DNA of 57,613 bases, taken from NCBI GenBank assembly GCA_902774145.1, contig CACYHC010000009.1:1-57613 (forward strand). Reading direction: 5' to 3'. A program made the position numbers and the translations under genes. The stretch's first letter is position 1. Each line of letters opens with the position of its first letter. This DNA comes from an uncultured Bacteroidia bacterium (lineage in GTDB: Bacteria; Bacteroidota; Bacteroidia; Bacteroidales; UBA932). Below, piece by piece: positions 35,488-38,106 of the stretch. The notes beneath the pieces are model-generated. The model had not been told where the DNA came from and searched no databases. It worked only from the letters and a program-made list of their open reading frames with translations.

Positions 35488-36609
35488 TCAAGCCTTCTCC
35501 AGATATCTGGACAAAAATACGTTATAAACGCTGTAACTTACTCCCTCCTCCCCGTTTTCGGCAAGAATTAATTCCTTCTCCACCAAGGACTTGACATTCT
35601 TTGAAACCGAAGCGCCTGACCCAAGACGATACTTTTGGATAAAAGATACAGATGTGGGATGAGAGACCGATTCTTCCTTTGCAATCGCTGTCATAAGTCT
35701 CCACTGCGCCGGAGTGAGAAGCCGTTGAAGTTCGAGGAAACGGTCTCTATTGGCAGCAATAATCCGTGCTTCTGCAGCAAGGATGTCAGTAGATGAAATG
35801 TATTGGGAACAACTGAGATACAGTTCATTACACAGCGTCTGGGTGTAAAAGGTATGATCACGCGTCCAATCAATAATCTGCCGCACATTTTCTGCCCCTA
35901 TTAGCTTTCCCCCATTGCCGAACAATCTTTGGATAAATGCTTCGTAAGTAGGAATGTCAAGTTTGCCAAGGGGAACAAATGTAGTGCTTTCGTAAAAGGG
36001 TTTCTTAGCATTGGAAAATATATCCGTCATGGTGTGCTTCTTGCTTCCACAGAAAATGAAACGGACATTATGAAGCTGCTGGATGTATGAACGCAGTAGT
36101 GCCTCCATACTCACACCTTCATATTCCCGAATCTGTTGAAATTCATCGATTGCAACAACCACCTTTCTCTTGTGCGTTTCAAGATACTGGAAGATTCCTT
36201 TAAGTGTCAGTTCTTTATCCTTATCATTCCGGTATATCATACTCACTTCCGGGGCACCTGTTACGGCATCATAGGTAATCAGTGGCCTGAGTCCTCCGAT
36301 TGCTTTGAAAAAAGCAGATATCTTGTTCTGCTTATTCAAGACCGACACAACAGATTCAGAGAGCAGTTTGATAAAGTCTTCGACGCACTGACTTGAACTG
36401 ATATCTACGTAGAAAGTATCGATATCGCTACAATTCGCAGCAATTTCTTCGAAAACGCGATATATCAGGCCAGTTTTTCCAAGACGCCGCGGTGATATCA
36501 GCGTCACATTCCTGCCATTGCTCAAATAGTCAACAATTTGTCTTGTCTCCAATTCTCGGTCACAAAACAACTCTCTGTTTCTGTAGGGCTCCAGGATAAA
36601 CGGATTCAT
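35488..36609 (-). CDS. AAA-type ATPase of the archaeal ATPase_2-like family
   Basis: 373 residues from ATG 36609 (MNPFILEPYRNRELFCDREL); the frame is open to 36672, but the promoter's -7 box lies inside that extension. An ATG at 36615 is the other candidate. Walker A ISPRRLGKTGL near 36, Walker B VVVAIDEFQQI, sensor-like FIFCGSKKHTM, and a C-terminal winged-helix-like part (SFIQKYRLGSGASVSKNVKSL). No nuclease domain is attached. Base composition is visibly AT-richer than the neighbours, which suggests acquisition. Function is unknown in this widespread family; DNA binding by the C-terminus is plausible. Confidence 0.8.
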   Translation of the reverse strand: MNPFILEPYRNRELFCDRELETRQIVDYLSNGRNVTLISPRRLGKTGLIYRVFEEIAANCSDIDTFYVDISSSQCVEDFIKLLSESVVSVLNKQNKISAFFKAIGGLRPLITYDAVTGAPEVSMIYRNDKDKELTLKGIFQYLETHKRKVVVAIDEFQQIREYEGVSMEALLRSYIQQLHNVRFIFCGSKKHTMTDIFSNAKKPFYESTTFVPLGKLDIPTYEAFIQRLFGNGGKLIGAENVRQIIDWTRDHTFYTQTLCNELYLSCSQYISSTDILAAEARIIAANRDRFLELQRLLTPAQWRLMTAIAKEESVSHPTSVSFIQKYRLGSGASVSKNVKSLVEKELILAENGEEGVSYSVYNVFLSRYLEKA

Positions 36610-36641: not shown

Positions 36642-36673
36642 CAAATATAACACATCTGAACGAATTAACCAAA
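36642..36673 (-). promoter_or_regulatory. Promoter of the AAA ATPase gene
   Basis: Minus strand TTTG (36673-36670), 20-base spacer, TATATTTG (36649-36642). Full match to both boxes; places the transcription start about 22-28 bases before ATG 36615 or 36609. Confidence 0.72.
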
Positions 36674-36702
36674 GGTTGTTAACTAAAGGTTTATCGACTC
36701 CG

Positions 36703-36745
36703 CTATCGATAGGTTTTAATTCCGGCGGTAAACAACCGCCGGAAT
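36703..36745. repeat. Palindrome and 11-bp hairpin
   Basis: CTATCGATAG (36703-36712) is a perfect 10-base palindrome. Seven bases on, ATTCCGGCGGT (36719-36729) and ACCGCCGGAAT (36735-36745) form a perfect 11-base-pair stem with a 5-base loop. No T-run follows on either strand, so it is not a standard terminator. It stands at the left side of the structured stretch between the ATPase and Rpn genes. Confidence 0.6.
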
Positions 36746-36775
36746 GCGTTTCACAGTCCTTAAACTATACGGTCT

Positions 36776-37039
36776 CCGGCAGCTACAGATGGGGCGCTGC
36801 CGGCGAGGAGCGAGCGGTGCTGCATCCGGAGGACGTGGCCACCCGCGGCCACGGGAACCGACGCACGAGCGAGCAAAGAGAAAGGCGCCCTTTCTCTTTC
36901 GAGCGAGAAGGAGGAAACGAACGAAGTTCGTAACCGGGAGGTGTCCGCCGGAGACAAGTTATTGCGCAGCAATGACGCAGGAAACGGTGGAAGGGTCCGG
37001 AGTGAGAGTAGCGAACGGAGTTCCTCCGGGTGCAGCACC
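36776..37039. repeat. Nested inverted-repeat element or structured RNA between ATPase and Rpn genes
   Basis: Within a 570-base stretch holding no convincing gene (36610-37179). A long-range 18-base-pair helix is formed by GGTGCTGCATCCGGAGGA (36816-36833) and TCCTCCGGGTGCAGCACC (37022-37039), with one G-U pair. Inside it lie separate perfect hairpins: GTGGCC/GGCCAC (36835-36852), an 11-bp stem 36875-36885 with 36889-36899 around a 3-base loop, ACGAAC/GTTCGT (36917-36931) and ATTGC/GCAAT (36961-36973). Just outside on the left, CCGGCAG/CTGCCGG (36776-36803). Short open frames cross it on both strands, but their content is arginine-, proline- and serine-rich and follows the palindromes, so they are probably not genes. 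Could be a dispersed mobile repeat or a non-coding RNA. Confidence 0.55.
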
Positions 37040-37086
37040 CGAGCATCCGAGATAAAGGCAGCCGCTTCCCGGTTTTAACTGTGAAG

Positions 37087-37143
37087 TTTTTTACGTTTCA
37101 TCGAAATCTTTTTACGTTTTCGATCATTTTTTACGTTTTATCG
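37087..37143. repeat. Three TACGTTT direct repeats upstream of the Rpn gene
   Basis: Copies at 37087-37103 (TTTTTTACGTTTCATCG), 37109-37125 and 37127-37143 (TTTTTTACGTTTTATCG), about 20 bases apart, so roughly two helical turns. They end 36 bases before the Rpn ATG. The spacing suggests an operator or protein-binding array. A weaker relative (TTATTGCGTTCCAT) follows at 37149. Confidence 0.55.
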
Positions 37144-37179
37144 GCATATTATTGCGTTCCATTTAAAATTTTATGAACT

Positions 37180-38106
37180 ATGGAACAACGTTATGCCAAC
37201 CTGACCTATGACGAAGCCCTCAAGGTCATCATCTTCGCCCCGGGGAACGAACCCCTCATCATCCAAATGCTCGAACTCCTCCTGCCCGAAAAGAAAATCA
37301 AATCACTCGTCCTCAAGGACAGGGAACAGCACGGTTTTGCAATTTCCGATAAAAATAGTACTTTTGACTGCTACTGCACGGGAGACGACGGAGAGTGCTT
37401 CATCGTGGAGATGCAGAACTCCCCACAAAAGAGTTTCGCGGACCGGATGCTCTGCTATTCCACCTTTCCCCTGCGGGAGCAGATGGAACTGAAAATCCAG
37501 CAGCGGCGGGATGCGGCGAAGCGCGGGGAGACGGTCGATACGATGGACTACAGCCTGATGCCGGTGTATGTGGTGAGTTTCGTCAACTTCACGCTCCCGC
37601 ACGAAAGTGAAGAGACGCTGGAAGGCGGGCTGTTGAGCCGCTACGAGTTGCGAAACTCTCACAGCGGGGAGTTGATGACAAGGGCGCTGAATTTCGCCTA
37701 CCTGGAACTGGGACGCCTGAAGTGGGGCAAGGATGAGGCGAAGAAATGTTCGACACGCCTGGAGCAGTTCGCCTGGTCGCTGAAGTATATGCACACGGTG
37801 GACAAAGTCCCGGAGAACTTTGAAGACGAGTTTATAAGAAAACTGTATGAACGCTCTGCCTTCGCCAATATGGATGTGGCGACGCAGCATAAATACGAGA
37901 GCATTATGAGAACCGAAATCGATATCATCGCGCAGAAAGCCTGGGCCCGCGAAGAAGGCAAAGCCGAGGGCTTGGCAGAAGGTGAAGCCAAAGGGCGCGA
38001 AGAAGGACGGGGCGAGATTGCCCAGAACCTCCGCGATATGGGCCTTCCGCTGGAACAGATCTCCAAAGCCACCGGACTCTCCGTCGAACAGATCGCCGCG
38101 CTGTAA
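37180..38106 (+). CDS. Rpn-family recombination-promoting nuclease / putative transposase
   Basis: A 308-residue protein of the PD-(D/E)XK superfamily. Core: FAISDKNSTFDCYCTGDDG then ECFIVEMQN, giving the D...ExQ active-site pattern, with LPEKKIKSLVLKDREQ before it. Middle: YVVSFVNFTLP. The C-terminus is the charged, repetitive tail usual in this family (EGKAEGLAEGEAKGREEGRG) followed by LRDMGLPLEQISKATGLSVEQI, a helix-turn-helix-like end. E. coli RpnA is a Ca/Mg-dependent DNA endonuclease that raises RecA-independent recombination. The gene stands alone on the plus strand, between minus-strand genes, next to the inverted-repeat stretch. Confidence 0.88.
   Translation: MEQRYANLTYDEALKVIIFAPGNEPLIIQMLELLLPEKKIKSLVLKDREQHGFAISDKNSTFDCYCTGDDGECFIVEMQNSPQKSFADRMLCYSTFPLREQMELKIQQRRDAAKRGETVDTMDYSLMPVYVVSFVNFTLPHESEETLEGGLLSRYELRNSHSGELMTRALNFAYLELGRLKWGKDEAKKCSTRLEQFAWSLKYMHTVDKVPENFEDEFIRKLYERSAFANMDVATQHKYESIMRTEIDIIAQKAWAREEGKAEGLAEGEAKGREEGRGEIAQNLRDMGLPLEQISKATGLSVEQIAAL

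Follow-up and report, generated by a model that had tools for sequence, protein, structure and literature searches.

A dispersed palindromic module with a conserved pseudoknotted fold, tied to the ends of an IS1182-type transposon clade in a genus of gut Bacteroidales

The window analysed here, a 57,613-nucleotide stretch of DNA from an uncultured Bacteroidia bacterium (lineage UBA932; GenBank assembly GCA_902774145.1, contig CACYHC010000009.1), carries between two protein genes a structured module that belongs to a dispersed family, and this module and its relatives are the subject of the present work. The gene to the left (35488-36609, minus strand) encodes an AAA/ATPase_2 protein and the gene to the right (37180-38106, plus strand) an Rpn-family PD-(D/E)XK protein (PDDEXK_2); neither is part of the element, and these Pfam assignments agree with the ATPase and nuclease-like neighbours named in an earlier reading of the letters alone (the sequence-only reading). 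The stretch between them, 36703-37179, is crossed by open reading frames (ORFs) of 85-103 aa. The same reading had described many hairpins together with an 18-bp helix, and this was borne out: an inverted repeat of 18 nt, 94% complementary with a single G-U, joins 36816-36833 to 37022-37039, perfect hairpins lie at 36719-36729/36735-36745 and 36875-36885/36889-36899, and a further hairpin with a single T.G pair lies at 36958-36965/36969-36976. When folded as RNA, 36703-37090 reached -171.9 kcal/mol, as against -136.6 +/- 5.9 kcal/mol for 100 shuffled sequences (z -6.0), none of which equalled it. No Rfam family was found in the window at gathering level, and none at E<=5 for 36650-37200. A covariance model of the module, R1, built from 25 copies, matches 36811-37046 of the plus strand with 100 bits, and the remainder of 36703-37179 is flank. 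A word repeated on both sides of the stretch had also been pointed out, and two copies of it (GGTTTTAA) are present, at 36712 and at 37071, the second beginning one position later than had been given (37070); these are its only plus-strand copies, and the minus strand has none. No meaning could be attached to this word, which by eye was absent from the other copies of the module in the same genome, and it was dropped, as was an inverted repeat around the window copy (TTCACAGT/ACTGTGAA) that by eye was likewise not in those copies.

The module recurs as a dispersed repeat and behaves like a mobile element, lying at various loci across one genus and also inside genes. A BLASTN search of the window's own genome returned nine further matches at E<=0.001, some of which are parts of one copy, and matches were found in 18 of 36 other sampled genomes of the genus, whereas 24 genomes from the order's other families gave none. 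In the own genome R1 gave seven matches with E-values of 1.2e-7 or below, plus three weak ones, and it matched 328 of 400 sampled genomes of the genus (82%, own genome included), with at most seven candidates scored per genome, so that copy numbers are lower bounds. In the rest of the phylum R1 matched none of 295 genomes, in a search with stricter filters and 10 scored candidates per genome, by which weak matches may be lost. An exact pattern of the core occurred in 112 stretches; all 80 records listed are titled Bacteroidales or Bacteroidia, they are mostly metagenome-assembled genomes, many with ruminant sample names, and viral contigs held no exact match to the pattern. The element has thus far been detected in a single genus of gut Bacteroidales. 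A dispersed mobile repeat was among the guesses of the sequence-only reading, which proposed BLASTN against the own genome and other Bacteroidales as a check, and the copies found in the own genome, in the 328 genomes and inside genes uphold that guess. Two sets of copies underlie the counts given below: the first holds 78 of 102 R1 matches, after removal of the window copy, of one partner (the second) from most inverted pairs, of duplicates that overlap and of the weakest among the matches, and the second began as 79 of 94 matches (15 partial or weak ones dropped), from which 16 identical to the first set were removed, leaving 63. Several copies lie at contig ends (L003, at the start of contig C1 of genome G000; G311:C12:1; G266:C110:3; L, G and C numbers are our own labels for loci, genomes and contigs); assemblies may therefore break there, and true copy numbers may be higher.

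The module is ~150 nt long and consists of a stem P1, a hairpin P2 whose loop forms a pseudoknot, P3 with a conserved G.U, P4 and P5. On the plus strand of the window, the arms of P1 are 36816-36833 and 37022-37039, the P2 hairpin (CGTGGCC-ACCCGC-GGCCACG) lies at 36834-36853, and the pseudoknot joins CCCG in the P2 loop (36842-36845) to CGGG at 36935-36938, with 4 bp here and 5 bp in most relatives. P3 encloses P4 within 36944-36991 (P3 at 36944-36950/36985-36991 with its G.U at 36947-36988, P4 at 36958-36965/36969-36976), and the P5 hairpin, with CCG/CGG closing pairs, occupies 36997-37018. The window copy carries an extra ~80 nt in the pseudoknot loop (36854-36934), including the perfect 11-bp hairpin at 36875-36899, and among the 102 R1 matches only this copy and one on contig C14 of the own genome (L002) exceed 175 nt.

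Relatives keep the module as a fold more than as a sequence, and P1, P2 with its loop pseudoknot, P3/P4 and P5 covary. Across 98 distinct copies, in an alignment fitted to the covariance model and so biased towards the structure, standard pairs filled 96.5% of 4654 cells, compared with 71% after shuffling and at most 49% when partners were slid, and double changes were seen at 41 of 50 pairs (1198 double-change cells, compared with 343 shuffled and at most 272 slid). A MAFFT alignment of 25 copies was 92.7% paired, compared with at most 45% when slid, and held 246 double-change cells, compared with 87 when shuffled. The sequence of P1 is freely variable and still 94% paired, one pseudoknot pair is seen as C-G, G-C and U-A (61, 18 and 8 copies) with the remaining four nearly invariant, and the G.U of P3 is kept in 85 of 96 scored copies. 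Base pairing is what the relatives conserve, those lying inside genes being read in four different frames. Because G.U pairs outnumber A.C mismatches (239 to 33, with 145 of the 239 in two fixed columns; 72 to 25 in P1 alone), the plus strand of the window is taken to be the folding strand. RNA fits as the folded form, as would single-stranded DNA. A structured RNA had been another guess of the sequence-only reading, with covariation among homologues as its check; the strong covariation confirms an evolutionarily conserved fold, whereas the part of the guess that takes RNA and not single-stranded DNA to be what folds is one that we infer. The refuting outcome named in that reading, neither a second copy nor covarying homologues, thus did not occur.

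R1 matches frequently occur as inverted pairs, and such pairs in genome G360 enclose an ORF of 573-577 aa encoding a transposase of the IS1182 family of insertion sequences (IS) (NF033551, 460 bits; DDE_Tnp_1_6). The module is tied to both ends of one IS1182-type clade at a nearly fixed place. For this clade (that of L101), 25 loci were fetched, and 11 were near full length (>=450 aa); modules were present at 10 of these 11, on both sides in eight, on one side in two (L178, L180) and on neither side in the remaining one (L183). The upstream module lies 124-134 nt from the transposase on the opposite strand, except in L180 (same strand), the downstream module lies 13-33 nt from it on the transposase strand (190 nt in the broken L187), and terminator-like hairpins just outside the modules end the conserved IS unit. 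Among the 14 other matches fetched, which are shorter or broken, modules were seen at L188, L189/L199 (one contig), L190, L191 and L196, and none at L192-L195, L198 and L200-L202. Furthermore, six short units (L060, L106, L107, L036, L086, L083) contain the two modules with an AT-rich spacer and the pair of hairpins but no transposase between the modules, and they share with the IS its non-coding end, the spacer and the end hairpins.

The same data bear on the view that modules are independent palindromic elements and merely landing sites for IS1182 transposons. Modules are indeed far commoner than the IS, and one IS of the clade has none; however, the position of the modules relative to the transposase hardly changes from genome to genome, in spacing or, save in L180, in orientation, and the transposase-less units hold modules, spacer and end hairpins together. 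In addition, as judged from the model in PMC5678879, an IS that landed in a palindrome and duplicated it would be expected to leave the copies in direct rather than inverted orientation. We regard this view as unlikely. As a separate observation, L325, L326, L328, L329 and L332 belong to another IS1182 clade of the genus, and several of them have, by eye, ends like GAGGNCNCTGAAAAA. A different mover would be implied if the module were a repeat of the repetitive extragenic palindromic (REP) or bacterial interspersed mosaic element (BIME) type, moved by a REP-associated tyrosine transposase (RAYT; Y1_Tnp). The inverted pairs and the placement near the 3' ends of convergent genes resemble BIMEs, and Y1_Tnp matches above cut-off occur in 98 of 151 genomes of the genus; the own genome, however, has no Y1_Tnp match, and at 30 Y1_Tnp loci with 1.5-kb flanks the sole R1 match was one of 51 nt and 21 bits (L158). 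The module is also ~5 times longer than a REP, given as 20-40 bp in PMC3733652. RAYT as the mover is largely refuted, no RAYT gene in the 30 loci being flanked by the module beyond the one weak match, and a REP-type origin is very unlikely.

Nineteen of the 141 distinct copies (78 + 63) lie inside ORFs with a Pfam-supported host, namely MurE, TruB, MurB (two sites), an M20 peptidase, aminotransferases (three), HutI-like amidohydrolase (two), prephenate dehydrogenase, a SpoU methylase, MiaB-like (two), TruA (two), YgiQ-like and DapF (two). The names MurE, MiaB-like, TruA, YgiQ-like and HutI-like are our own reading of the Pfam families, and essentiality of these genes is likewise presumed. In the first set 13 copies had a spanning ORF and seven were counted; L057, L005 and L110 had no family, one L100 ORF has its whole domain beyond the element on the downstream side, and the neighbour-family tally was the only scan to include L034 and the other L100 ORF. 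In the second set 14 copies had a spanning ORF and 12 were counted, L230 and L272 having no family. The host frame is resumed after the module in 18 of the 19 copies (11 sense, 7 antisense), where about one third would be expected by chance given an open ORF. The copies use two frames in sense (6 + 5 of 11) and two in antisense (6 + 1 of 7), and therefore no single peptide is required; peptides recur within one frame because the DNA is alike. The amidohydrolase and DapF genes were each entered at the same place in opposite orientations. At the MurE site the module was present in one of 30 loci, of which six were not anchorable, and the others had no insert, short hairpins or other palindromes, while at the DapF site five of 30 loci had the module at E<1e-14 (query genome included) and one more had it weakly. 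For annotation this means that some ~50-aa insertions annotated in MurE, MurB, TruA, TruB, DapF and other proteins of these genomes are mobile DNA.

A second type of in-frame palindrome was observed in the same loops of MurE (L129, L134) and DapF (L358), with the core CGTCGCTTCGCGACCCTGTACGGGCAAATG in L134, reversed in L358 and as a variant in L129; of these three, R1 matches only L358, and weakly (29 bits). The MurE site also holds in-frame 8-bp hairpins with 5-nt loops (ATTCCCGG or similar) in L119, L126, L138, L139 and L141, L138 having an additional tandem repeat of ~21 nt, and other in-frame short repeats, GTCATCCTGAGGAACGAAG-like and GTCATTTCGAGCGAAG-like, occur in L124 (MurE) and L360 (DapF).

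A structured, pseudoknotted sequence found inside core genes could in principle be a self-splicing or otherwise excised intervening sequence, and the search through open ORFs does favour open frames. Nevertheless, seven of the 19 copies are antisense and 18 stay open and continue in the host frame, a property that excision would make unnecessary; in-frame resumption in both orientations and in four frames therefore speaks against splicing. Group I, group II and other self-splicing introns were rejected on these features, sense orientation and indifference to an open frame being what was looked for, and excision is extremely unlikely.

The strong covariation and G.U bias are also what a duplicated family of functional regulatory or house-keeping RNA genes, with mobility secondary, would show, and a promoter-like pattern points the same way: TTTG-N15-21-TANNTT, which we take to be sigma-ABfr-like, occurs on the sense strand in the 110 nt before 20 of 134 copies; on the antisense strand of that side it was seen at 7 of 134, and on the downstream side at 7 of 137 (sense) and 0 of 137 (antisense). 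Of the 20 copies, 17 share one motif 16-22 nt before the module. However, all 17 have the IS-type spacer, and the motif is restricted to copies of this kind. Terminator-like sites show no sense-strand excess after the copies, being about equally frequent downstream sense (43 of 137) and upstream sense (38 of 134), and are commonest downstream antisense (68 of 137), as with convergent neighbour genes. The seven in-gene copies antisense to their hosts, and the 72 of 400 genomes of the genus with no match, also argue against a functional RNA gene family, which we consider quite unlikely.

Copies tend to sit in hairpin-prone spots. In the first set (75 of 78 copies usable), the duplex between a copy's own left and right flanks averaged -20.6, compared with -16.2 for crossed flanks (sd of the mean 0.59), with 20 of 75 copies below the crossed 5% level; in the second set (62 of 63 copies) the values were -20.7 and -17.2 (sd 0.60), with 12 of 62 below that level. 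Own flanks are more complementary than crossed flanks in both sets, as would be expected if copies lie inside older hairpins. Flank palindromes are exemplified by GTCGATTTCAAGGGTC / GACCCGAAATCGAC at L077 and GCGTGATT / AATCACGC at L080, and by eye the G398 copies L109 and L110 lie within apparent arms of terminator hairpins. Among the 65 copies without a spanning ORF, the 3' neighbour is on the opposite strand in 39 of the 55 with a neighbour within reach, and the 5' neighbour is on the same strand in 31 of 53 copies, the 13 spanning copies being excluded. A larger palindrome seems to enclose the window copy as well, and its halves on the plus strand are 36773-36806 and 37057-37065 (GGCAGCCGC), GCTGCC at 36796-36801 being complementary to 37057-37062; the flank duplex of this copy is -36.9 kcal/mol, a single case without control. 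By eye, the right half is also the right edge of several copies in the own genome, to which an edge near 37065 is common.

The sequence-only reading had further suggested that the stretch could be the DNA substrate of the Rpn protein, and this suggestion was not supported. PDDEXK_2 is not enriched near the 78 copies: among 131 neighbouring or spanning ORFs it fell outside the 25 most frequent of 119 families, so that at most one of the 131 ORFs had it, and the most frequent families were domains of IS1182 transposases (DUF772, 6 of 131). An Rpn partner was accordingly rejected, and the Rpn gene looks like a chance neighbour. AT-rich direct repeats (TTTTTTACGTTTCATCG...) lie at 37087-37158, just ahead of the Rpn start, and stretches like these have matches of E 0.0017 or weaker at other places in the own genome.

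Taken together, these data suggest that the window stretch is probably a solo copy of a non-autonomous palindromic, hairpin-seeking mobile element that shares a structured domain with an IS1182 lineage. An IS1182-type transposase would mobilise, or would once have mobilised, the modules by recognising structure instead of sequence, and would place them into DNA hairpins; cells in which an insert breaks an important reading frame would mostly be lost; and the conserved fold would be the part that the transposition machinery, or a transcript, must form. We infer that solo copies were mobilised by the transposase of the IS1182 clade and that the fold was needed for this. Staphylococcal IS1272, of the IS1182 family, is described in PMC5678879 as using inverted repeats or stem-loops as targets, which are replaced without target duplication. 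Structure-directed insertion by an IS1182-type transposase is the most economical explanation because of the flank palindromes, the end hairpins, the conserved fold and this IS1272 precedent.

It should be noted that several points weigh against this explanation. The transposase is much rarer than the module: close relatives of the G360 transposase occur in 19 of 200 genomes of the genus at E<=1e-30, and 34 of 200 have an IS1182 family match of any kind at E<=1e-10, compared with 82% for the module. The own genome had no match in either the clade search or the wider IS1182 search; mobilisation by the clade transposase may therefore lie in the past. One full IS of the clade is without a module (L183/L321), the upstream module of L180 is in an unexpected orientation, L178 has a module on one side only, and the downstream match of L184 and L197, both from one genome, runs off the contig end and is weak (23 bits). 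Outside the clade, the IS1182 loci L325, L326, L328 and L330-L332 are without a module, and L329 is marginal (19.7 bits). Solo copies inside genes are without the IS end hairpins, one of them (L246, aminotransferase, sense) does not resume the host frame, and frame-breaking copies are under-counted because the ORFs were picked as those that remain open through the whole element. In the crossed-flank control, loci of unlike base composition are mixed, which may inflate the excess, and no exact pair of sites before and after insertion was found, the closest being MurE of G101 (94% aa identity), which has an 8-bp hairpin at the site. Finally, the G.U signal would look the same for folded single-stranded DNA as for RNA.

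A bolder possibility, speculative and rather improbable, is that the IS1182 lineage transposes via a structured RNA (or single-stranded DNA) domain encoded at both ends, as an RNA-assisted DDE transposon. The domain would be carried on the 3' end of the transposase mRNA and on a divergent small RNA, would bind the transposase, and would alone suffice as a minimal hairpin-seeking mobile unit; the solo RNA modules would then form a parasitic population, much as short interspersed elements (SINEs) share a tail with long interspersed elements (LINEs). The literature searched, within its limits, contained no description of the element or of such an RNA-assisted DDE transposon.

Among known systems, miniature inverted-repeat transposable elements (MITEs) are likewise short, dispersed and without a transposase, and the short transposase-less units have both termini in common with the autonomous IS, as an IS1182-derived MITE should; unlike MITEs, solo copies are, by eye, one internal module without the IS end hairpins. 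REPs, BIMEs and REP doublets forming hairpins (REPINs) resemble the element in being palindromic, often intergenic and arranged in inverted pairs, but the module is much longer and pseudoknotted, and the 30 loci examined gave no RAYT link. The IS110 bridge RNA is similarly a structured non-coding module beside a transposase or recombinase in an IS, whereas the IS1182 enzyme here is a DDE transposase. With IS1272 and the IS1182 family the element shares the transposase family (NF033551) and hairpin-forming ends, IS1272 reportedly targeting inverted repeats without target-site duplication; its terminal repeats, however, are described as ~16 bp (PMC5678879), whereas here a module of ~120-170 nt lies inside each end and also occurs alone. 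In-frame palindromic mobile elements, of which the element would be a variant, are best known from Rickettsia (PMC10969869). Rickettsia palindromic elements (RPEs) are ~150 bp long, form several families, lie within genomic ORFs in nearly half of the cases reported in R. conorii and are said to encode a conserved peptide (PMC10969869). Like RPEs, the present element is palindromic, ~100-150 bp long and in frame in unrelated genes (18 of 19 copies here); unlike them, it belongs to another phylum, is read in four frames where RPEs have a conserved peptide, and has a pseudoknotted fold that is conserved and recurs at the ends of an identified IS clade. We know of no identified mover of the Rickettsia elements. 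The gut Bacteroidales family described here has a covarying pseudoknotted fold, has entered identical loops of core genes repeatedly and in both orientations, and is tied to a transposase family for which stem-loop targets are reported elsewhere. With it, the movement of such elements and the reason for their RNA-like appearance become directly testable questions.
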